Virus record (IMG/VR): IMGVR_UViG_3300042564_000781
Location: 56,668 to 120,667 of that record
Reading direction: 5' to 3' (one strand)
Length of the DNA: 64,000 nucleotides
Origin: a virus
The position numbers and the translations under genes were made by a program. Shown in pieces: positions 49,908-63,377 of this stretch. Within the stretch, counting starts at the first letter, position 1; each line of letters starts with the position of its first letter. The notes beneath the pieces were generated by a model. It was not told where the DNA came from. It worked only from the letters and a program-made list of their open reading frames with translations, and did not search any database.

Positions 49908-50987
49908 ATGGCAACAAAAGCATTTGACTTATCTAAATTCCGCAAAACCCTAACCAAGAGCATCGATGGCTTAGGTGTTGGCTTTAATGATCCTACAGAT
50001 TGGATCTCAACAGGCAACTATGCTCTAAACTATTTGATTAGTTCAGATTTTAACAAAGGTGTGCCACTTGGTAAAGTGACAGTCCTTGCAGGTGAATCAG
50101 GAGCAGGTAAGAGTTATATCTGTTCTGGCAATCTTATCAAAGCCGCTCAACAACAAGGCATTTATGTAGTGTTAGTTGACAGTGAAAATGCTCTTGATGA
50201 GAAATGGCTTCATGCACTTGGCGTAGATACAAGTGAACAAAAATTGTTAAAACTCAATATGGCCATGATTGACGACGTGGCAAAGACCATTAGTGAATTC
50301 ATGAAAGAGTACAAAACAATGGATGAAGCAACTCGTCCTAAAGTATTGTTTGTCATTGACTCATTAGGTATGTTGTTAACTCCAACAGACGTTAATCAGT
50401 TTGAAGCAGGCGAAATGAAAGGTGACATGGGCCGTAAGCCTAAGGCACTTACTTCATTAGTTCGTAATTGTGTAAACATGTTTGGCAGCTACAATGTTGG
50501 ATTGGTTTGTACAAATCACACCTACGCAAGTCAAGACATGTTTGATCCAGATGACAAAATTTCAGGTGGACAAGGTTTCATTTATGCAAGTAGTATTGTT
50601 ATTGCCATGCGTAAACTGAAATTGAAAACTGATGCCGATGGCAACAAGACTACCACAGTAAATGGTATCCGTGCCGCTTGTAAGATCATGAAAACACGCT
50701 ATGCAAAGCCATTTGAATCAGTACAAGTTGAGATTCCTTATGCAACAGGCATGAGTCCATACAGTGGTCTTACTGATCTGTGTGAGGCAAAAGGTTTGCT
50801 TACAAAAGATGGCAACAGACTTAAATACGTTTCTACAGATGGTACAGAGATTAAATTGTATCGTAAGGAATGGGAACGTAATGAAGATGGATGTCTTGAT
50901 AAAGTCATGCTTGAATTTAATAATGTTCGCCCAGTTCCTACAGTACAACTTGCTATTGATGAAGAAACTGGAGAAATTATAGAATGA
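49908..50987 (+). CDS. uvsX: UvsX RecA-like recombinase
   Basis: A 359-residue RecA-fold protein. Walker A GESGAGKS at residues ~62-69, VVLVDSENALDE with the strand-exchange region, Walker B VLFVIDSLGML (D151), and the L2-like TNHTYASQDMFDPDDKISGGQGFIYASS segment. Length is close to T4 UvsX (391). Catalyses strand invasion for recombination-dependent replication, loaded by UvsY onto gp32-coated ssDNA; all three genes lie together here. The end overlaps the next small gene by four bases. Confidence 0.93.
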   Translation: MATKAFDLSKFRKTLTKSIDGLGVGFNDPTDWISTGNYALNYLISSDFNKGVPLGKVTVLAGESGAGKSYICSGNLIKAAQQQGIYVVLVDSENALDEKWLHALGVDTSEQKLLKLNMAMIDDVAKTISEFMKEYKTMDEATRPKVLFVIDSLGMLLTPTDVNQFEAGEMKGDMGRKPKALTSLVRNCVNMFGSYNVGLVCTNHTYASQDMFDPDDKISGGQGFIYASSIVIAMRKLKLKTDADGNKTTTVNGIRAACKIMKTRYAKPFESVQVEIPYATGMSPYSGLTDLCEAKGLLTKDGNRLKYVSTDGTEIKLYRKEWERNEDGCLDKVMLEFNNVRPVPTVQLAIDEETGEIIE

Positions 50988-51235: not shown

Positions 51236-51691
51236 ATGACTTGGTATACAAAAGTTTCAAAAGATATTTCGTATATTCCCGATGCTGTAGCACACTATGA
51301 ACTTGAATTACAGGCAGCAAAGACAGATGCTCGCATAGCGGGGAACATTGAAAAGGCCGCTGCCAGGATGCCAGGCATTGTGGAAGAACGATTTGGTCAG
51401 CTACAAGAAATTGAAGCAATTTTGGAATATTTGAATATTGAACTTAGACGACTTAAGAGTCAACACTTCCGTAAATATTTAGAAAACTATCAAAGGGCTC
51501 TGTCATCAAGAGATTGTGAAAAATTTGTTGAAGGCGAGTCTGATGTGGTTGACTTTGAAAAAATTATCAATGAGTTTGCCCTGCTGAGAAACAAGTGGCT
51601 AGGCATTACTAAAGCATTAGATCAAAAACAATGGCAATTAACCAACATTGTTAAACTTAGAGTAGCTGGCATGGAAGATGCCACGTTATAA
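51236..51691 (+). CDS. uvsY: UvsY recombination mediator
   Basis: A 151-residue helical protein, matching T4 UvsY in length (137) and position just after uvsX. The conserved pattern is Y.PDAVAHYELELQAAKTDARIAG (N-terminal helix binding ssDNA) and IEAILEYLNIELRRLKSQHFRKYLENY. UvsY helps displace gp32 and load UvsX. It ends ten bases before a consensus promoter for the next gene. Confidence 0.85.
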   Translation: MTWYTKVSKDISYIPDAVAHYELELQAAKTDARIAGNIEKAAARMPGIVEERFGQLQEIEAILEYLNIELRRLKSQHFRKYLENYQRALSSRDCEKFVEGESDVVDFEKIINEFALLRNKWLGITKALDQKQWQLTNIVKLRVAGMEDATL

Positions 51692-51735: not shown

Positions 51736-52911
51736 ATGATAACAGTAGACACATTGCTCATAGAGCTGTCCCGTCAAGGCATTGAAACCTTAAGTTCTCA
51801 GATTGCCAACAGAGATAAAAAAGTTTTAATCAGTCTTGCTAGGCAAATTACATCGGGTCAATTTTTGACTGAAAATCAGTCAAAATTACTGATAAAAATT
51901 CTCAAAGAAAACGATCAACATATTTTTGATCCAACGTCTACCACTCGCACTGTTGTTGATAATCCCACATGGACACACCCCTTTAGAGTGATTGAACAGG
52001 TTAGAAAAATTTTCTTATCCAAAGACCACGATGGCCGAATCATAGTGGAATTTACCCATAATAAACGTCTACGACAGCAAATCACTGACCTCAATAAAAT
52101 CATCGAAGGTCAGATGCTGTCGATTAATAACAGGCAGTATAGTGTACCACTAACTGAAAAAAATCTCTACCAGATAGTCGCAGTGTTCAAATCACATGGG
52201 TTCGAAGTAGATCCAATTATTATGAAATTTTACCAAGAAATTTCAGAAATTCGCTCAAGAAAGTCAACCCAGTTTGATGTGTTTAATTTAACTAATGAAA
52301 AATTAATTACCGCGGTGCATAATGAAATTGGTCAGATATCAGACGACAATTTGATTATGTTAAACGATCGAAGCTTGAAATTTCAATTCACAATTTTTCC
52401 AAAAAATCCAGAAATTTCACTGAAAAATTCACTGGCTAACAGGCCGTCACCTCGAGTATGGATTGATAGTAACACTACCCCACTTGATGAGTTAGTTACG
52501 GCACTATACAAATTAAATCGATTACCTGTACTATTTGTGTTCAACGGTCATGACTCTAAAGAGTGTTTACAAAACCTCAAAAAATTGGAAAAATCACTGA
52601 AAAATAGTGACCTTGATAAGATCGGGATTTATTTTAGATTTGATAGTGGCAGTGATAATAACAAAGAATTTAATTCTTTAATTTCACAATTAGATTACAA
52701 CTCTAAATTAAATCAACAGACACAGGTAGCAGGTATTGCAAATAATAAATTACCAAAATTCATGCTAAAAAATGGTTGGTATCCATCAAGTGTAGTATCA
52801 TTCTCAAATAATTTTAAAAGCAATAAAACCAGTGTCTATTGCAATTCAGTTGATTTGATAGTATACTACAATGATAAACGTCCCTTAGGAGGGGTAGATG
52901 CCATCGTGTAA
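51736..52911 (+). CDS. Unknown early protein between uvsY and uvsW, 391 residues
   Basis: I do not recognise a family. Residues ~1-60 are helical (LIELSRQGIETLSSQIANRDKKVLISLARQI, then LTENQSKLLIKILKEN). Residues ~95-230 hold mixed segments (IIVEFTHNKRLRQQITDLNK). Residues ~255-330 contain PRVWIDSNTTPLDELVTALYKLNRLPVLFVFNGHDSKECLQNL, which resembles a Rossmann-like domain. It has its own consensus promoter and overlaps uvsW by 14 bases, so uvsW expression is coupled to it. A DNA-repair or replication accessory role is inferred from the neighbours. Confidence 0.75.
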   Translation: MITVDTLLIELSRQGIETLSSQIANRDKKVLISLARQITSGQFLTENQSKLLIKILKENDQHIFDPTSTTRTVVDNPTWTHPFRVIEQVRKIFLSKDHDGRIIVEFTHNKRLRQQITDLNKIIEGQMLSINNRQYSVPLTEKNLYQIVAVFKSHGFEVDPIIMKFYQEISEIRSRKSTQFDVFNLTNEKLITAVHNEIGQISDDNLIMLNDRSLKFQFTIFPKNPEISLKNSLANRPSPRVWIDSNTTPLDELVTALYKLNRLPVLFVFNGHDSKECLQNLKKLEKSLKNSDLDKIGIYFRFDSGSDNNKEFNSLISQLDYNSKLNQQTQVAGIANNKLPKFMLKNGWYPSSVVSFSNNFKSNKTSVYCNSVDLIVYYNDKRPLGGVDAIV

Positions 52912-54358
52912 ATTGATCATTCAAGATGAGGTAAATCTTAAGGTAGAAGGACTTCCTGTTGAAATTCGACGTAAGTTAGCAAATACATTTAAGTATGAGG
53001 ACCCTACTGCTCGTTATCGTCCAGCATATAAGTTAGGTAGGTGGGATGGAGCAATTACATTATTTGGATTAGGTGGTAACGGCTACCTAAGCCAGCTGCC
53101 AAAGATCTTAGAAGTACTGGAAAAAAGCGGCGTTGAGATAACAGAAATTATCGACAATCGTGCAGCCATTAATTTGCAGTTTCCTAAAGTAGAAGCAGAC
53201 TTTTGGGGAGATCAATGCTGGCCTGTTGGACACAGATTTGCAGGTCAGCCAATTAGACTGCGTGAAGATCAAGTTGAAGTAGTAAATAAATTTCTTGAAA
53301 ATCCTCAGTGTTTACAGGAAATTGCCACTGGCTTTGGCAAGACAATAACCACAGCAACATTAGCAAAGATTTGTGAACCTTACGGTCGAACATTTACTAT
53401 TGTACCTAATAAAAGTCTTGTTGAACAAACAGAAGAAGATTTTATCAACTGCGGCCTTGATGTAGGTGTGTACTATGGTGATCGCAAAGATCTCTATAAA
53501 ACTCACACTATTGCCACTTGGCAGAGTCTTAATATACTCGACAAGAAAAGTAAAAATCACGAGCAAGACATATTAACACTTGCAGAATTTCTTGACGGTG
53601 TTACTACAATTATGGTAGACGAGGTACACATGGCTAAAGCTACTGTGTTGAGAAATTTGCTGACACAGAACTTTAACAATGCTCCTATTCGTTGGGGTTT
53701 AACTGGCACTGTACCTAAAGAAGATTTTGAAGCACAGCAAATTTTTGTAAGTCTTGGACCCTGTGTACACGAAGTTCACGCACATGAATTACAAGCACAA
53801 GGTGTTTTAAGTGACTGCCATGTAAACATAACACAACTTATTGACTTACCTGAATTTAAGTCATATGCAGAAGAATACAAGTATCTTGTCACTGATGAAG
53901 ACAGGATGATTTTTATATCAAAACTAGTAAATGGCATTAGTAATAGTGGTAATACCCTTGTACTGGTAAATCGAATAGAGACAGGTAAATTCATTGTTAA
54001 CGAAATTCCAGATAGTGTCTTTATTTCAGGTGAAGTAAAAACTAAAGATAGAAAGAGTGAATACGATGAAATTAAAACTGTTGATAACAAGATTATTGTG
54101 GCGACTTACGGTGTGGCCGCTGTGGGTATTAATATCCCCCGTATTTTTAATCTGGTTATGGTGGAGTCCGGAAAGAGCTTTACAAGGGTTATACAAAGCA
54201 TTGGGCGAGGCATTAGACGTGCAGACGACAAAGACTTTGTCCAAATCTGGGACGTTACAAGTACCTGCAAATACGCCAAGCGCCATCTCACGCAACGTAA
54301 GAAGTTTTACAAGGACGCTAAGTACCCGTTCACGATCGAGAAAATAGACTGGAAATAA
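52898..54358 (+). CDS. uvsW: UvsW-like superfamily 2 helicase
   Basis: A 486-residue protein. The N-terminal ~110 residues match the UvsW DNA-binding domain (FKYEDPTARYRPAYKLGRWDGAITLF). Helicase motifs: LREDQVEVVNKF (Q-like), ATGFGKT (143-149, motif I), VDEVHMAKA (241-, motif II), GLTGTVPKE (motif III) and QSIGRGIRRADDK (motif VI). Length is near T4 UvsW (587). UvsW unwinds R-loops and branched DNA and helps switch from origin to recombination-dependent replication. Start has AGGAGG upstream and lies within the preceding gene. Confidence 0.92.
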   Translation: MPSCKLIIQDEVNLKVEGLPVEIRRKLANTFKYEDPTARYRPAYKLGRWDGAITLFGLGGNGYLSQLPKILEVLEKSGVEITEIIDNRAAINLQFPKVEADFWGDQCWPVGHRFAGQPIRLREDQVEVVNKFLENPQCLQEIATGFGKTITTATLAKICEPYGRTFTIVPNKSLVEQTEEDFINCGLDVGVYYGDRKDLYKTHTIATWQSLNILDKKSKNHEQDILTLAEFLDGVTTIMVDEVHMAKATVLRNLLTQNFNNAPIRWGLTGTVPKEDFEAQQIFVSLGPCVHEVHAHELQAQGVLSDCHVNITQLIDLPEFKSYAEEYKYLVTDEDRMIFISKLVNGISNSGNTLVLVNRIETGKFIVNEIPDSVFISGEVKTKDRKSEYDEIKTVDNKIIVATYGVAAVGINIPRIFNLVMVESGKSFTRVIQSIGRGIRRADDKDFVQIWDVTSTCKYAKRHLTQRKKFYKDAKYPFTIEKIDWK

Positions 54359-55146: not shown

Positions 55147-55448
55147 GTACAGACGCAGATAAATTTAATCATAGCAAACGTCTTCAACGGAACGAAAACG
55201 CTGTAAAGAAACAAGTAAAAATTGCTAAAGCACACGGTCTAACTGATAAAGATAAAGCAGTTAAGGAACCGCACCGCTTAGAAAAACACCATGCTATGGA
55301 CTGCGGTAATCCCGGATGTATGCTATGTGGTAATCCTCGTAAGCTATGGCACGAATTAACTGCACAAGAAAAACGCATGTTCCAAGAAACAGAAATTCGT
55401 CGTATGCGCCATAGTAATGGTACAATTCCAGAGGATGATAATGAGTGA
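55143..55448 (+). CDS. Conserved small phage protein with a Cys cluster, 101 residues
   Basis: Very charged N-terminal half (KFNHSKRLQRNENAVKKQVKIAKAHG), then HHAMDCGNPGCMLCGNPRKLWHELT, where three cysteines and nearby histidines could bind a metal. The C-terminus is RMFQETEIRRMRHSNG. The stop codon lies eight bases inside the following clamp-loader gene. Similar CGNPGCxLCxNPRK proteins occur in T4-like phages and some bacteria, from memory. Function unknown; a nucleic-acid-binding role is possible. Confidence 0.7.
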   Translation: MSTDADKFNHSKRLQRNENAVKKQVKIAKAHGLTDKDKAVKEPHRLEKHHAMDCGNPGCMLCGNPRKLWHELTAQEKRMFQETEIRRMRHSNGTIPEDDNE

Positions 55449-55911
55449 AAAGGTTGAACTAAAAGATAAACTTGCAGCCGTTGATATGAACTACAAAGGC
55501 CTGTGGGACGAGTTAGATGCTGAACAACAGAAGGCACTTAAGAGTGAGTTGTTTATTTTAAATCGATACATTAGCAATGCCCAAGGCAATCGAGAAATTC
55601 AGGAACATTTTATTTTAACTGTTAATGAATACTTTAACAAGCACTGGAATATTCTACAGAAGCATCCAAAATTGTTATGGCAATTGCTTTGTATGTGCGG
55701 GCATGAAAGTCAAAAGATATTTTTTCATCAATGGATTGGCTTTAAGAAAAAACAAGGCAATAACAAACTATCTAAGTTTTTATTAGAAATATACCCAAAC
55801 AAAAAACAAGATGAAATTGAAATGATGAGTCAATTAATGACTACTGCTGACGCTAAAAAATTAGCACAAACACATGGTTTTGATGATAAACAAATTGCTA
55901 AAATGTTTTAA
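55441..55911 (+). CDS. gp62: Clamp-loader small subunit (gp62-like)
   Basis: A 156-residue protein. Start set at ATG 55441, which follows CCAGAGGATGATA and overlaps the previous stop, rather than the ATG at 55417. The pattern fits gp62 of marine T4-like phages: LAAVDMNYKGLWDELDAEQQKALKSELFILNRYISNAQGNREIQEHFI, WNILQKHPKLLWQLLC, then IGFKKKQGNNKLSKFLLEIYPNKKQDEIEMM and DAKKLAQTHGFDDKQIAKMF. T4 gp62 with gp44 loads the gp45 sliding clamp. It differs greatly from T4 gp62 itself; identification is by resemblance to marine relatives. Confidence 0.7.
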   Translation: MSEKVELKDKLAAVDMNYKGLWDELDAEQQKALKSELFILNRYISNAQGNREIQEHFILTVNEYFNKHWNILQKHPKLLWQLLCMCGHESQKIFFHQWIGFKKKQGNNKLSKFLLEIYPNKKQDEIEMMSQLMTTADAKKLAQTHGFDDKQIAKMF

Positions 55912-55913
55912 CT

Positions 55914-56609
55914 ATGTTAGAATTAAGTGTGAATAAACCTTACGCCTGTCAGTTTTGCAAATCAAAATTTATGCAAGAAAGAACTCTTGCAGTACACATG
56001 TGCGAGCAGAAAAGACGTTACTTGGCCAAGGATGAAAAACATGTTTTTATAGGATATCAAACCTATAATAAATTTTATAGAATTACGCAACAACTAGGTG
56101 TTGACAAAACCTATGACGACTTTGCACGTAGCCCATATTATAATGCTATGGTAAAGTTTGGAAGTTTTGTTAATAACACAAAGCCCCTATACCCTGACAA
56201 ATTTATCGACTATGTAGTACGCAGTGGTGTTAAATTAGATCACTGGTGTAGAGATGAATTATATGAGAAATATGTTATTAACTTAATTCATACTGAATCT
56301 GTCGAGACCGCATTAGAGAGAAGTGTTGCACACATGCAATCCTGGGCCACTGATAATAATGCCCTGTGGAATCATTACTTTAAGTATGTTAGTACTAATC
56401 GAGCTGTATTTGATGTCAAGGATGGTAAAGTGAGCCCGTGGCTAATTCTTAACTGTGCTAGTGGCAAAGCTATGCTGGGCAATTTCCGTGATGATCAGTT
56501 GAGTGCCATTGGCAATGTTATTGATCCGCAGGTATGGGTTAAGAAGTTTAAAACTCAAAAGTTTGACATGGAACTTGTGAGAACTATTGTTAAAGAATCG
56601 AGCCTATAA
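55914..56609 (+). CDS. Zinc-finger phage protein, 231 residues
   Basis: The N-terminus YACQFCKSKFMQERTLAVHMCEQKRRYLAKDEKHVFIGYQTYNKFY is a C2HC or C2H2-like zinc finger (C12, C15, H28, C30) followed by a basic stretch. The remainder is helical and aromatic (YVVRSGVKLDHWCRDELYEKYVINLIHTESVETALERSVAHMQSWA), ending VSPWLILNCASGKAMLGNF and DPQVWVKKFKTQK. Similar genes follow gp62 in marine T4-like phages, from memory. It overlaps the DnaE-like gene start by one base, so the pair is probably co-translated and may work together. DNA binding is inferred from the zinc finger. Confidence 0.75.
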   Translation: MLELSVNKPYACQFCKSKFMQERTLAVHMCEQKRRYLAKDEKHVFIGYQTYNKFYRITQQLGVDKTYDDFARSPYYNAMVKFGSFVNNTKPLYPDKFIDYVVRSGVKLDHWCRDELYEKYVINLIHTESVETALERSVAHMQSWATDNNALWNHYFKYVSTNRAVFDVKDGKVSPWLILNCASGKAMLGNFRDDQLSAIGNVIDPQVWVKKFKTQKFDMELVRTIVKESSL

Positions 56610-57190
56610 TGCCAGATATTGATATTGACTTTGCTGACAGAGATCACGCCCTTAAATTTATCAAACATATACCTGCGGCTATTAAGGATACAACTGGTAC
56701 TTTTAAAAAGCACAATACTGGCGTATATTGTACACCTATCCCGTACAATCCTGTAAATAACTTATCCAACGTAGACTACAAAGAAGCAGAAGAAAGAGGC
56801 TATTTTAAACTAGACTTTCTAAATGTTAGTATCTATAAAGATGTACGGGATGAAGAGCATCTCAAAACTTTAATGGAGACTGAACCACTATGGGACCTTT
56901 TAGCGCAGGACGATTTCAGCAGTTTACTATTTCACGTCAACGGACACGGAAGCATTTTGAGACAGATGAAGCCGACGAGTATACTCCAACTAGCGGCCGT
57001 TTTGGCTATGATAAGACCCGCAAAGAGGCATTTGATTGGAGAGACCTGGACGACGGTGATGGAGACGATTTGGACAAAGCCCGAGGATGGTGAGTACTAC
57101 TTTAAGAAAGCTCATGCGGTAGCATACGCAATGGCAGTGGTAGTACAGATGAATTTAATCTGTGAAAGTATCAGTTACGGATATACATGA
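56609..57190 (+). CDS. Miniature DNA polymerase III alpha-like (DnaE palm) protein, 193 residues
   Basis: A small protein carrying DnaE landmarks in order: PDIDIDFADR at residues 2-11 (E. coli PDFDVDF, catalytic D401 and D403), KHNTGVYCTP at 34-43 (KHAGGVVIAP), YFKLDFLNVS at 65-74 (VKFDFLGLR, catalytic D555), a LLFHVNGHGSILRQMKPTSILQLAAVLAMIRPAKRHLI block at 106-143 (AVFQLESRGMKDLIKRLQP...ALVALFRPGPL) and YYFKKAHAVAYAMAVV at 163-178 (FNKSHSAAYALV). It lacks PHP, most fingers, and the beta-binding and OB domains of ~1160-residue DnaE. It overlaps the zinc-finger gene by one base and the oxygenase by four. It may be an accessory polymerase-like factor or a relic; the phage replicase gp43 is not in the window. 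Confidence 0.8.
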   Translation: MPDIDIDFADRDHALKFIKHIPAAIKDTTGTFKKHNTGVYCTPIPYNPVNNLSNVDYKEAEERGYFKLDFLNVSIYKDVRDEEHLKTLMETEPLWDLLAQDDFSSLLFHVNGHGSILRQMKPTSILQLAAVLAMIRPAKRHLIGETWTTVMETIWTKPEDGEYYFKKAHAVAYAMAVVVQMNLICESISYGYT

Positions 57191-57804
57191 CTATAGAATA
57201 TTTTGAAACTCCAGTGCCCCATATAATTGTTAGAAACATATTTAATACTAATGATTTAGAAAATGTTTGGAAAGAATTAGCATTCTTAACACATCCAGAC
57301 AAACTGTTATCACCAACAATTACACAATCGGCAATATCACCTAACGGCAATACGGTTAAAAACAACCACGGAGTTTTCTTACATGATATATACCAAACTC
57401 CTAATATTTCAGATATCTATCGATCAATGACTAATGTGTTTACTAGACAATTCTGTGAAGAAGTAGCTTCTAAACATATGATATTTAAATGGTTTACTGA
57501 GCTTACTGATGAATCTTTTTTGTTAAGTTATTATGATGATAATGATAATTACCTTCCACATAAAGATGTGTCTATATATACAGTACTAGTTAACCTATAT
57601 AAAGACCCTAAAGCATTTGTCGGTGGAGATTTGTTGTTGGGTGAAGATGGCTATACAATTCCGTTAGAAAATAATAGGATGATTATTTTTCCAAGTTGGG
57701 CAGTACATGGAGTTACCCCTGTTAAATTTTTAAATACAACAGAAAAATTCTCAGGATGGGGAAGATATACTATTAGTAATTTTCGAATGTACTTACGACA
57801 ATAA
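57187..57804 (+). CDS. 2OG-Fe(II) oxygenase (prolyl-hydroxylase-like)
   Basis: A 205-residue protein with the full triad: H125-K-D127 in NYLPHKDVSIYTVLVNLY, H174 in IFPSWAVHGVTPV and the 2OG arginine in WGRYTISNF (R193). FVGGDLLLGEDGYTIPLENNRMIIFPS gives the central sheet. It starts four bases inside the DnaE-like gene, so it is expressed with the replication block. The best-preserved HxD oxygenase in the window with the one at 28541. Substrate unknown. It converges on the minus-strand gene at 57818 with a 13-base gap. Confidence 0.8.
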   Translation: MTIEYFETPVPHIIVRNIFNTNDLENVWKELAFLTHPDKLLSPTITQSAISPNGNTVKNNHGVFLHDIYQTPNISDIYRSMTNVFTRQFCEEVASKHMIFKWFTELTDESFLLSYYDDNDNYLPHKDVSIYTVLVNLYKDPKAFVGGDLLLGEDGYTIPLENNRMIIFPSWAVHGVTPVKFLNTTEKFSGWGRYTISNFRMYLRQ

Positions 57805-57817
57805 GGTACAGATTTAG

Positions 57818-58198
57818 TTAATTCTTAGGTATAGGTCGAACCAATTGTACACTTTTACGTTTGACTCTTTTTAACGTTAAGTTCATTAAATTAACAACTG
57901 GTCCTAATAGTATTCGAACATCCTTACTATTAAATGTCTTTATTGCATACTTAAACGGCGAAATTTCTGTGCGCAGAAAGATATTGATAGGTATCTGTCT
58001 ATTTGATTCCCACCACCAAGTCTCTCCAATATCTAAAAATATCGTCTTTTCTTCGGGTGTTTTAATAATAGATAAGTCGTAGAAGCTAGTTACGAACTGA
58101 TCTTGATTTATAATAATACCTACGAATTCGGCCTCGCCGTAGTGTAATACGCTTATAAACGGTAAGTGTTCTTGTATGTTATCTCTTAATTTAACCAT
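57818..58198 (-). CDS. Conserved phage protein, 126 residues
   Basis: Contains HLPFISVLHYGEAEFVGIIINQDQFVTSFYDL, LDIGETWWWESNRQIPINIFLR and PFKYAIKTFNSKDVRILLGPVVNLMNLTLKRVKRKSVQLVR. I recall this TWWWESNR/TFNSKDV pattern as a conserved hypothetical of marine T4-like phages. The start codon directly abuts the TATAAATA late motif of the divergent gene. Possibly a translational or polymerase-binding regulator, but no motif supports a function. Lone minus-strand gene in this part of the genome. Confidence 0.75.
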   Translation of the reverse strand: MVKLRDNIQEHLPFISVLHYGEAEFVGIIINQDQFVTSFYDLSIIKTPEEKTIFLDIGETWWWESNRQIPINIFLRTEISPFKYAIKTFNSKDVRILLGPVVNLMNLTLKRVKRKSVQLVRPIPKN

Positions 58199-59039: not shown

Positions 59040-60029
59040 ATGAGTTTAATCATAGATACAGTACAGTCATACCTCCCTGCAAAACGTAAAGTAACCCCGA
59101 GTGGTTGGGTCAGCTTCAATGCGGTATGCTGTCACCATAACGGGACATCAGCTGACAATAGACAGCGTGGCGGCATTATGGTTAATGAAGGTGTTAGCTA
59201 TCATTGCTTTAACTGTGGATTCAAAGCCAGTTGGCAACCAGGTCGCAAAGTATCGGTTAAATTAAAACGTCTTATGCAATGGCTAGGTGTTGCAGACGAT
59301 ACCATTACCAAATGTAGTCTAGAGGCTATGCGCATCGAAGAAGACAGTTCATACAAAGGTGAGCAAGGTCTTATACCCACATTTATTGACAAAGCCTTGC
59401 CTATTGGCACTAAGCCTTTAACAGAATGGATTAAACATCCCTCAGACGAGCTAGTACCAGTATTGGAATACCTAGCCAGCCGCAACCTATACGTAGATGA
59501 TTATCCTTGGCATTGGACTGATGAAGATGGATTTAGCAATAGACTAATTATTCCTTTTTATCACGAACATAGGCTAGTTGGATATACTGCCCGTAAGATT
59601 ACAACTGGTAAACCCAAGTACATAAGTGAACAACAGCCCGGATATGTGTTTAATTTAGACAGACAACATTACGAACGTAAATATGTCATAGTAACAGAAG
59701 GCCCTATTGATGCTATCTGTATAGACGGTGTTGCTGTAATGAGTGCTGAGATCGGCGTAAGCCAACATGCACTAATTAGTCAACTACAGCGTGAAGTTAT
59801 AGTGGTAGCAGATAGAGATGACGCTGGTTATAGGATGGTTGAACAGGCACTAGAATATGGATGGAGTGTAGCTTTTCCTGAATGGACCGAAGGCGTTAAA
59901 GACGTAAATGACGCAGTTATCAAATACGGAAAATTATATACACTATACAGTATCATAAGCTCAAAAGAATCTAACAATTTAAAAATACAGTTACAAGCAC
60001 GTAAATGGTTTAAGAAGGAAGAAGAATGA
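59040..60029 (+). CDS. gp61: DNA primase (gp61-like)
   Basis: A 329-residue primase. Zinc-binding module: CCHHNG at residues ~30-35 and YHCFNCGFKASW (C56, C59). TOPRIM domain: VIVTEGPIDAICIDG (E220 and the GPIDA loop) and EVIVVADRDDAGYRMVEQA (D258, D260). PKYISEQQPGYVFNL precedes the TOPRIM. Length matches T4 gp61 (342). Makes short RNA primers with helicase gp41 encoded downstream. An early promoter with leaderless placement drives it. Stop overlaps the next small gene by four bases. Confidence 0.92.
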   Translation: MSLIIDTVQSYLPAKRKVTPSGWVSFNAVCCHHNGTSADNRQRGGIMVNEGVSYHCFNCGFKASWQPGRKVSVKLKRLMQWLGVADDTITKCSLEAMRIEEDSSYKGEQGLIPTFIDKALPIGTKPLTEWIKHPSDELVPVLEYLASRNLYVDDYPWHWTDEDGFSNRLIIPFYHEHRLVGYTARKITTGKPKYISEQQPGYVFNLDRQHYERKYVIVTEGPIDAICIDGVAVMSAEIGVSQHALISQLQREVIVVADRDDAGYRMVEQALEYGWSVAFPEWTEGVKDVNDAVIKYGKLYTLYSIISSKESNNLKIQLQARKWFKKEEE

Positions 60030-60136
60030 AATTTATTAATTGGCTACTAACGCCCTACAGACGCTGGCAGGAACGCAAAGCATTTAATAAGCGTCTTGAA
60101 GAACTGCGTAAACGCGATCCATTTATTTACAAATGA
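60026..60136 (+). CDS. Conserved 36-residue protein between primase and carbamoyltransferase-like gene
   Basis: A very short gene, ATG 60026 to TGA 60136, overlapping the primase stop and the next start by four bases each (ATGA at both ends), which strongly supports translation. The product MKFINWLLTPYRRWQERKAF (first 20 residues) continues to a RKRDPFIYK end. It is basic, with an amphipathic N-terminal helix and a KRLEELRKR segment. I recall proteins ending DPFIYK at this site in other T4-like marine phages. Function unknown; a helicase- or primase-binding peptide is possible. Confidence 0.75.
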   Translation: MKFINWLLTPYRRWQERKAFNKRLEELRKRDPFIYK

Positions 60137-61077
60137 TACAGTGGGGAATAAACGCTCTCAATCACGGCAGTAGTCTAGCGGTGTTTAAGGATAGCGAACT
60201 ACTATCATGGGTTACGTGTAAAGATAACGAAATAGACACATTACTTATTACTGATGCACTACATCGAGGTGCTCCGGATCGTATTTTTTGGTATGAACGT
60301 CCTTGGCTTAAAAAAGCAAGACAAGTATATGCTGGGCAATATGCGACAGCATTAGACATGTCGGTGTTACCTAAACGATATTTGAATAAAATAAGAGTTC
60401 ACTATGCCCCAGTTACTTACACGCCGCACCATGCAAGTCATGCTGCCGCTGGGTACTACTCTAGTCCGTTTAATCACTGTGCCATTGTTGTACTAGATGC
60501 AATAGGTGAATTTGAATCGGCTACCATATGGGAAGCCAAGTACGGTGAAATGAAGAAAGTATGGAGCAGAAGTTATCCACATAGTTTAGGCTTGTTCTAT
60601 TCAGCATTTACAAAATTAATTGGACTTACTCCAATTAAAGATGAATACCTATTACAGAAGATGGCAGCACAGGGCGACAAACAACGGTATTTTAAAGAAG
60701 TTAATAACTATGTCAGCAACACAGTTAATCTAAAATACAACCTACATCGAGGTGTATTAAACTGGCCTTACCCGATTGAAACACTGCAAGATCAATGTGA
60801 CATTGCGGCCGCAGTACAAGATGCATTTGAAGGTCAAATTGGTATGGTTATGCTAGAAGCTAGAAAATTAATCAACACCGATTGCCTAGTTTATATGGGC
60901 GGCTGTGCTATGAATTCGGATGCTAACAAACGGTTTGTAGAACCCGCATTTAAGTATCGCTGGTCATTGCCAAATCCGGGTGATCCGAGTAGTAGCATAG
61001 GGGCAGTTGCTTATCACAATAAACAACGGATATACCGCAACTGGTCACCAGTCAAACACATTGCAATTAACGTATAA
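60133..61077 (+). CDS. Carbamoyltransferase-like N-terminal domain protein, 314 residues
   Basis: Matches the Kae1-like N-terminal half of NodU/CmcH enzymes: WGINALNHGSSLAVFKDSELLSWV, TPHHASHAAAGYYSSPF with the metal-binding histidines, AIVVLDAIGEFESATIW, CDIAAAVQDAFEGQIGMVMLEARKL, VYMGGCAMNSDANKRF and PGDPSSSIGAVAY. The YrdC-like C-terminal half (present in the 607-residue protein at 26069) is absent, and the frame ends naturally, so it is a compact variant rather than a frameshift. Without the domain that makes carbamoyl-AMP, it may use another partner. It lies between primase and helicase genes. Function uncertain. Confidence 0.7.
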   Translation: MIQWGINALNHGSSLAVFKDSELLSWVTCKDNEIDTLLITDALHRGAPDRIFWYERPWLKKARQVYAGQYATALDMSVLPKRYLNKIRVHYAPVTYTPHHASHAAAGYYSSPFNHCAIVVLDAIGEFESATIWEAKYGEMKKVWSRSYPHSLGLFYSAFTKLIGLTPIKDEYLLQKMAAQGDKQRYFKEVNNYVSNTVNLKYNLHRGVLNWPYPIETLQDQCDIAAAVQDAFEGQIGMVMLEARKLINTDCLVYMGGCAMNSDANKRFVEPAFKYRWSLPNPGDPSSSIGAVAYHNKQRIYRNWSPVKHIAINV

Positions 61078-61877: not shown

Positions 61878-63377
61878 ATGAACGATTATAATAACGATAA
61901 AGCAAGACAAAACGTAGACTACGGGTACGATATACAACGTCTTTATTTAGAAATGATGCTATCTGATGCAGAAACATTTGTACGCTGCCAAAGCATCTTT
62001 GATCACGAACTATTTGATCGCAAGCTACAAGCAAGTGCCAAGTTCTTAAATGACTATGTAGTAGATCATAATGTACTGCCCACATATGACATTGTTAATG
62101 CGGCCACTGGATCAACCTTTAAAGAAACTACAGATCTTAAAGATGCACACTATGATTGGCTACTCAGTGACTTTGAAACATTTATTCGACACAAAGGTCT
62201 TGAGAGAGCTATTCTAGCCTCAGCTGACTTGTTGGAAAAAGGTGAGTACGGTCCTGTAGAAGAACTAGTTAAGAAGGCAGTGCAAGTTGGCTTAACCAAA
62301 GATCTAGGCACTGACTACTTTGCAGATCCACGTGGTCGCTTGATGAAGATCAAAAGCAACAACGGGCAGTTAAAGACTGGCTGGGACACTGTGGACAAAC
62401 GATTGTTTGGGGGGTTTAACCGAGGAGAGCTGAATATCTTTGCAGGCGGTTCGGGTGCGGGCAAGAGTCTATTCCTAGCAAACTTAGGAGTCAACTGGGC
62501 ACTACAGGGATTTAATGTAGTGTATCTAACTCTAGAATTAAGTGAAGAACTAGTATCAATGCGTGTGGATAGTATGATAACTGATATACCTAGCAGAGAC
62601 ATTTTTAAGAATATTGATGATGTTGAGATGAAGGTTAAGGTAATTGGCAAGAAGAGCGGCACATATCAAGTCAAGTACATGCCATCGGGTAAAACATCTA
62701 ATGATGTGCGTAGTTACTTGAAAGAGTATGAGATTAAACTAGGACGTAAAGTAGACATCTTGTTAGTAGACTACTTGGACTTGCTGATGCCAATCTCCAA
62801 GAAGATTTCAGCGGAGAACCTGTTTATTAAGGACAAGTACGTAAGTGAAGAATTGCGTAACCTAGCAGTGGAGAAGCAGTGTGTCTTGGTAACGGCTGCA
62901 CAGTTGAATCGTGGTGCTGTGGAAGAAGTTGAGTTTGATCACAGTCACATTTCGGGTGGATTAAGTAAGATACAGACTGCGGACAACGTGTTTGGTATCT
63001 TTACATCAAGGGCCATGCGTGAACGTGGCAAGTATCAAATCCAGCTGATGAAAACTCGTAGTAGTTCGGGTGTGGGCATGAAGATTGATTTGGACTTTAA
63101 CATTGATACTCTACGTATTACAGATCCAGGAGAAGAAGGGCAGGGCGAGTATGGTAATGATTCAGGCGGTGCTCCAGTGAGCAAGGGCAATCAAATCCTT
63201 AACAGTCTCCAGAGATCTAGTACTACAGGTGGAACTAGCACAGAAGGTTGGGCACGTGGACAACCCCGAGAAGGACATGATCCACTAGCGGGCATTGCCA
63301 TTAAGAAGAATACCGCACAGGTAGAGTCAAGTAAACTTAGACAACTGCTGAATCAACTACCTTCGGACGACATTTAA
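61878..63377 (+). CDS. gp41: Replicative DNA helicase (gp41/DnaB-like)
   Basis: A 499-residue helicase. An N-terminal helical domain (residues ~15-140, QRLYLEMMLSDAETFVRCQSIFDHELFDRKLQ) is followed by the RecA-like core: Walker A FAGGSGAGKSLF at ~188-199, VVYLTLELSEELVSMRVDSM, Walker B VDILLVDYLDLLMP (~292-304), ITAAQLNRGA-like VTAAQLNRGAVEE and SGGLSKIQTADNVFGI. A Gly/Ser-rich linker and a C-terminal helix end it. Unwinds the fork and activates primase gp61. Close to T4 gp41 in length (475). Three bases after the SGNH gene. Confidence 0.93.
   Translation: MNDYNNDKARQNVDYGYDIQRLYLEMMLSDAETFVRCQSIFDHELFDRKLQASAKFLNDYVVDHNVLPTYDIVNAATGSTFKETTDLKDAHYDWLLSDFETFIRHKGLERAILASADLLEKGEYGPVEELVKKAVQVGLTKDLGTDYFADPRGRLMKIKSNNGQLKTGWDTVDKRLFGGFNRGELNIFAGGSGAGKSLFLANLGVNWALQGFNVVYLTLELSEELVSMRVDSMITDIPSRDIFKNIDDVEMKVKVIGKKSGTYQVKYMPSGKTSNDVRSYLKEYEIKLGRKVDILLVDYLDLLMPISKKISAENLFIKDKYVSEELRNLAVEKQCVLVTAAQLNRGAVEEVEFDHSHISGGLSKIQTADNVFGIFTSRAMRERGKYQIQLMKTRSSSGVGMKIDLDFNIDTLRITDPGEEGQGEYGNDSGGAPVSKGNQILNSLQRSSTTGGTSTEGWARGQPREGHDPLAGIAIKKNTAQVESSKLRQLLNQLPSDDI

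Follow-up and report, generated by a model that had tools for sequence, protein, structure and literature searches.

Gene neighbourhood of a small DnaE-like gene

The window analysed here is a 64,000-nucleotide stretch of viral DNA, corresponding to positions 56,668 to 120,667 of the IMG/VR record IMGVR_UViG_3300042564_000781. On its plus strand, at 56609..57190, lies a gene for a protein of 193 residues, which by its family (phrog_11778), motifs and structure model we identify as the C-terminal part of a minimal DNA polymerase III alpha split in two, and which is called the C-half below. The same cluster contains genes for a UvsX-like recombinase (49908..50987, phrog_97) and a UvsY-like recombination mediator (51236..51691, phrog_231), followed by a DNA helicase at the position held by UvsW in relatives (52898..54358, phrog_16), small open reading frames (ORFs), a CCHC zinc-finger protein (55914..56609, phrog_11058) and the C-half; the named genes are all on the plus strand. 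Downstream come a 2OG-Fe(II) oxygenase (57187-57804, plus strand, Pfam E 1.5e-7), a small convergent protein of unknown function on the minus strand (57818..58198, phrog_11637), and, again on the plus strand, a DNA primase (59040..60029, phrog_47) and a DnaB-like replicative helicase (61878..63377, phrog_19). The 314-residue product of the plus-strand ORF between primase and helicase (60133-61077) presumably resembles carbamoyltransferases of the NodU/CmcH type.

The zinc-finger gene overlaps the C-half gene by a single base, as the earlier note had observed, its TAA stop codon occupying 56607-56609 and the ATG of the C-half 56609-56611. This neighbour is not peculiar to the window, being present at 160 of 165 C-half loci with enough flanking sequence. 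Its finger follows the pattern C-x2-C-x12-H-x-C, and C12, C15, H28 and C30 are invariant in 20 aligned members. The antisense phrog_11637 protein was found on the opposite strand at 147/149 loci with enough flank, the primase at 76/78 and the UvsW-type helicase at 64/78; these locus counts come from two scans with contigs in common, isolates included. Annotated relatives repeat much of the gene order of the window, XacN1 differing downstream, and in PBECO4 and RaK2 a polymerase exonuclease subunit is also encoded within this cluster. Of 150 loci with enough flank, only two had an oxygenase match directly after the C-half. The ORF beside the zinc-finger gene (55417..55911) had been named as the clamp-loader subunit gp62. 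Its best match is phrog_11758, a family of unknown function, and it gave no match to phrog_225 at E <= 1, the family that T4 gp62 itself matches in a control search. The gp62 label is therefore not supported, although a very divergent gp62 is conceivable.

DnaE motifs in the C-half

The earlier note had described DnaE motifs in the E. coli order within the 193 residues, and all of them were located in the gene. PDIDIDF (residues 2-8), KHNTGV (34-39), KLDFL (67-71), LLFHVNG (106-112), MIRPAK (134-139) and KKAHAVAYA (166-174) correspond in a sequence comparison to residues 400-406, 510-515, 553-557, 607-613, 637-642 and 757-765 of E. coli DnaE, respectively. The key residues are D3, D5 and D69, together with K67, H35/G38, R136 and K167/H169/Y173. 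The same comparison equates D3, D5 and D69 with D401, D403 and D555 of E. coli DnaE, which we take to be its catalytic residues.

Among PHROGs families, the best match was phrog_11778, annotated 'DNA polymerase' (E 2.5e-66), and the second was phrog_405, the family of full-length phage DnaE (E 1e-9). A single-sequence Pfam search found the finger domain at E 0.088, short of the Pfam cut-off. Against the PDB, phmmer reached Pol III alpha at E 0.014, and a C-half profile did so at a weak E of 0.0045. Taken alone, the single-sequence matches are weak; on the PHROGs matches, the resemblance to DnaE is well above chance.

The protein is much reduced. Its start is equivalent to DnaE residue 400, and no Pfam match to a PHP domain was found in it. 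From the beginning of motif 1 to that of motif 2 there are 32 residues, compared with 110 in E. coli DnaE, where we assume that the intervening stretch forms the thumb region. The entire C-half aligns upstream of residue 781-809 of the 1160 residues of E. coli DnaE; the clamp-binding, OB and tau-binding regions presumably lie C-terminal to the aligned stretch. The triphosphate-binding motif GRGS is found nowhere in its 193 residues.

Conservation and selection

The C-half matched 63 records of isolated phages, all at less than 60% identity to the window protein; the matches listed include RaK2, PBECO4, 121Q, GAP32, CBB, Atu_ph07, PA5oct, Paride and Phosso. The versions in Sinorhizobium and Agrobacterium phages are about 53% identical to the window protein. 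In three records (JN882285, KU574722 and MT708547) the label 'putative membrane protein' stands under the C-half match. Uncultivated viral contigs contributed at least 557 confirmed stretches related to the C-half.

An alignment of 14 divergent C-halves revealed invariant residues that include D3, D5, D7, H35, G38, K58, K67, D69, P122, R136, K139, H169 and Y173. Among contig relatives, all 157 C-half ORFs keep the three catalytic Asp positions and the motifs DxDxD, KxDxL, IRPxK and KxHxxxY; these ORFs come from two scans with contigs in common and represent 123 distinct DNA sequences, three ORFs running off contig ends having been left out. The dN/dS ratio had a median of 0.12 and a range of 0.06-0.21 (218 pairs with pS between 0.1 and 0.6), which indicates that the C-half is under purifying selection.

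An alternative reading frame within the C-half

An open-frame test pointed to a candidate overprinted ORF in the +2 frame of the C-half gene (56890-57093, plus strand). Over 134 sequences the median open length of this frame was 68 codons, compared with 34 in synonymous shuffles, and 76 of the 134 gave p <= 0.05; of 500 shuffles, 6 reached the open run of the window itself. The Leu94 codon retains a +2 ATG in 66/70 sequences (CTA, TTA, ATA or GTA before TGG), to be compared with a share of 54% for CTA and TTA among all Leu codons. None of ten isolates reached p <= 0.05, and in 70 sequences the overlap showed no elevated synonymous identity (excess 0.07 within it, 0.14 before and 0.10 after it). 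On these sequence statistics we lean against a gene in the +2 frame, while one confined to the clade of the window is still conceivable.

A second locus in relatives encodes the N-terminal half

Twenty records holding the C-half were searched with the Pfam model DNA_pol3_alpha (PF07733, 260 positions). Sixteen of them contained a second locus, which matched only about positions 11-125 of the model. It encodes a protein of about 170 residues (161-183 in 12 aligned examples) that belongs to phrog_11127 and is called the N-half here. The four records in which it was not found, including that of the window, are 120-150 kb long. Two more PF07733 matches, in GAP32 and CBB, were rejected as weak, under the cut-off and interrupted by stops. 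In JN882285 and KU574722 the N-half is labelled DNA polymerase III alpha.

An N-half profile matched residues 207-393 of E. coli DnaE (E 4e-6). The 12 aligned examples share an invariant G-x-GRGS, and their C-termini lie only a few residues from an E-F-L/F motif, whose equivalent in DnaE is FLN 391-393, just upstream of PDFDVDF 400-406. GxGRGS was present in 80/80 contig N-halves, at least one of which carries a short additional tail (L178). Stop-to-stop frames span 189-238 residues for the C-half and 162-188 for the N-half, and no natural fusion of the two was found among the 157 C-half and 80 N-half ORFs. The split point is essentially the same in the sequences examined. Other phage DnaE proteins may be split elsewhere, as suggested by the places at which one N-half (L100:1501-2004, minus strand) is matched by two families annotated 'DNA polymerase': near the end of phrog_13169 (463 residues) and near the start of phrog_11165 (782 residues).

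Four of five annotated records examined have a gene annotated as clamp loader gp44 a few genes away from the N-half gene; in the fifth, Phosso, an 'AAA-ATPase' holds the place of gp44 nearby. In five uncultivated records the distance to a gp44 homologue is less than 2 kb.

Structure models of the two halves

The model of the C-half, built with 94 sequences, had a mean pLDDT of 91.2, and that of the N-half, for the protein of the uncultivated record G002 with 72 sequences, had a mean of 92.1. In a Foldseek search of the PDB with the C-half model, ranks 1-12 were all Pol III alpha chains, the best at E 7e-4 with a query TM of 0.61 and only three at E <= 0.001. Alignment with VIA-align gave the highest Z score, 9.8, for 4iqj_C over 187 residues. 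PolC (3f2c) was about as good as the DnaE chains (Z 9.4). E. coli DnaE chains gave Z 7.1-8.8 from residue 400-401 to 781-809, with 181 positions aligned to 2hnh 400-809 at Z 8.8. The next unrelated chain reached Z 3.3. Predicted strands at residues 4-8 and 67-72 hold D5 and D7, and D69, respectively.

For the N-half model, Pol III alpha again occupied the first Foldseek ranks, at a best E of only 0.02. VIA-align gave Z 11.9 for 5lew and Z 10.2 for E. coli DnaE (2hnh 276-393, 94 aligned); the Z values of 10-12 are below the level of about 13 that the aligner sets for mostly helical models, and unrelated chains scored 2.4 at most. The first 60 or so residues of the N-half lie outside the polymerase matches.

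In these comparisons only C-family polymerases stood out, a result that leaves room for other families, and the C-half is predicted to have the palm and fingers fold of the C family. Since the N-half model corresponds to residues 276-393 and the C-half model starts at residue 400, the two models match neighbouring stretches of a single DnaE chain without overlap. The earlier note had read the C-half as a stripped palm fragment of DnaE. It was right as to genuine DnaE homology and a stripped palm, with part of the fingers and the catalytic Asp residues kept. It was incomplete in treating the protein as standing alone, since in relatives GRGS sits on a second protein. The identity of the C-half as a DnaE-type half is secure; the function discussed below is inferred.

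Co-occurrence of the halves and the record of the window

Both halves were present in all 18 searched records of at least 180 kb, namely 13 isolates and the uncultivated records G001, G002, G003, G007 and G008; the last two, both longer than 200 kb, are further records in which the N-half was found. Among isolates, each half matched 63 records, and 59 were common to the 60 listed per half. The unshared records among those listed are PP728206 (109.5 kb) and OP752703; three matches per half lie outside those listed, so that a missing half is shown for neither of these two records. Fifteen shorter uncultivated records (61-111 kb) carry one half only, as expected because the halves are well over 100 kb apart in five large uncultivated records.

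A B-family polymerase was detected in 16/20 searched records that hold the C-half, in keeping with the expectation of the earlier note that this type of phage has a B-family replicase. In the window's own 120.7-kb record, searches found no full-domain C-, B- or A-family polymerase. Neither PF07733, a search positive in 16 sister records, nor the N-half profile detected an N-half there, and homologue searches likewise found no gp43 or gp44. Because the N-half, gp43 and gp44 are all missing, this record is most likely a fragment.

A model for a two-gene minimal polymerase

We propose, with a probability of about 0.8, that the C-half forms the C-terminal part of a minimal DNA polymerase III alpha that two genes encode and whose halves pair into a thumb-less, distributive, short-patch polymerase. 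From the C-half would come the palm's three metal-binding Asp residues and shortened fingers that bind the template and the incoming nucleotide. The N-half of about 170 residues, encoded near gp44 in relatives, would complete the palm and bring the triphosphate-binding GRGS motif. The two proteins would bind each other, form one active site and synthesise DNA. Distributive synthesis is proposed because the PHP domain, the thumb and the C-terminal, clamp-binding regions are lost, and with the thumb region gone processive synthesis is unlikely. Such an enzyme may work alongside the B-family replicase in recombination-dependent replication, on short patches (gap filling, repair or restart), as the neighbourhood of uvsX, uvsY, uvsW, primase and helicase suggests. 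We also considered a three-part enzyme. In it the upstream CCHC zinc-finger protein, as a further subunit, would restore the grip on DNA that went with the thumb and the C-terminal regions, and would link the mini-polymerase to recombination intermediates made by UvsX/UvsY/UvsW; this extension is speculative and unlikely.

The halves might instead assemble into a catalytically silent pair that assists the B-family replisome or the clamp loader in a structural or regulatory role. The lack of thumb, PHP and clamp-binding regions, the frequent company of a B-family polymerase and the closeness of the N-half gene to gp44 would all suit such a role. A silent protein, however, would not need the metal-binding Asp residues, GRGS and fingers motifs that are kept across very divergent relatives. 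An active enzyme is the more likely of the two because the motifs that bear the chemistry are retained in both halves, and we regard a silent accessory as unlikely.

The earlier note had raised other functions, in which the C-half would act, without the N-half, as a nucleotidyl transferase or a polymerase decoy. In favour of this idea, the N-half is undetectable in the window's record, and the model of the C-half is confident on its own (pLDDT 91). Its chances are nevertheless very slim, because the palm part with the nucleotide-binding GRGS, missing from the C-half, sits in relatives on a separate protein encoded elsewhere, and this N-half accompanies the C-half in every large record searched and in 59/60 isolate records listed. 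With 193 residues against 1160 in E. coli DnaE, the protein could also be what is left of a full DnaE that was acquired from a host and is decaying. That origin is scarcely credible for a protein with a median dN/dS of 0.12, an essentially constant split point and so many confirmed relatives. A two-gene minimal polymerase is our preferred reading.

Comparison with known systems

The two-gene arrangement, which large T4-like phages encode, was already published in 2021, and the window is a further member. Iyer et al. (PMC7824862) attribute a split minimal Pol III alpha to jumbo phages of 'group 2.2', consider it likely that an enzyme is reconstituted, possibly serving one strand or repair, and regard the split form as a model of an ancestral replicase. 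Their system shares with ours a C-terminal protein that binds Mg and template, a distant and separate N-terminal NTP-binding protein, a B-family polymerase in the same phages and the lack of other Pol III domains. Nothing essential differs; the window adds an uncultivated lineage, with the N-half not found in its record. In the literature searched, which left aside preprints and most subscription papers, we found no biochemical or other experimental test of a split Pol III alpha, and the words 'DNA polymerase' are absent from the accessible text of a 2026 jumbo-phage review (PMC13282480).

Individual phage genomes have yielded parts of the same picture. Pectobacterium phage CBB (PMC5259590) has a truncated 'Pol III alpha' of 172 residues, CBB_328, beside a DnaQ-like epsilon subunit, and by the size and place given there CBB_328 is the N-half. 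The description of Atu_ph07 (PMC6102473) names gp316, a truncated 'Pol III alpha' beside a DnaQ-like epsilon subunit, which is the N-half in the annotated record examined. In the passages available, both accounts name the N-half and not the C-half. For Sinorhizobium phage AP-J-162, two Pol III subunits, gp197 and gp206, are reported to resemble Atu_ph07 proteins (PMC11242549); these could represent both halves, or else alpha and epsilon.

With the arrangement already published, the significance for this window is modest. More generally, a C-family polymerase divided within its active site into two small proteins would give experimenters a way to ask what the catalytic core requires. A coliphage member, Sharanji (OR545507), is listed with E. 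coli K12 MG1655 as host, so that the arrangement is directly testable. The B-family replicase of T4, gp43, belongs to a polymerase family other than that of the C-half, and the co-occurrence of the C-half with B-family polymerases raises the question of why one phage keeps two unrelated enzymes. Compared with the bacterial DnaE of E. coli (1160 residues), the C-half shares the palm Asp residues and the KH..G, KxDxL, RP and KxHxxxY motifs, in the same order and the same predicted fold. Unlike it, the phage system has two chains rather than one, lacks PHP and the C-terminal regions and has shortened fingers, and we know of no DnaE as small as these two halves of about 170-190 residues.
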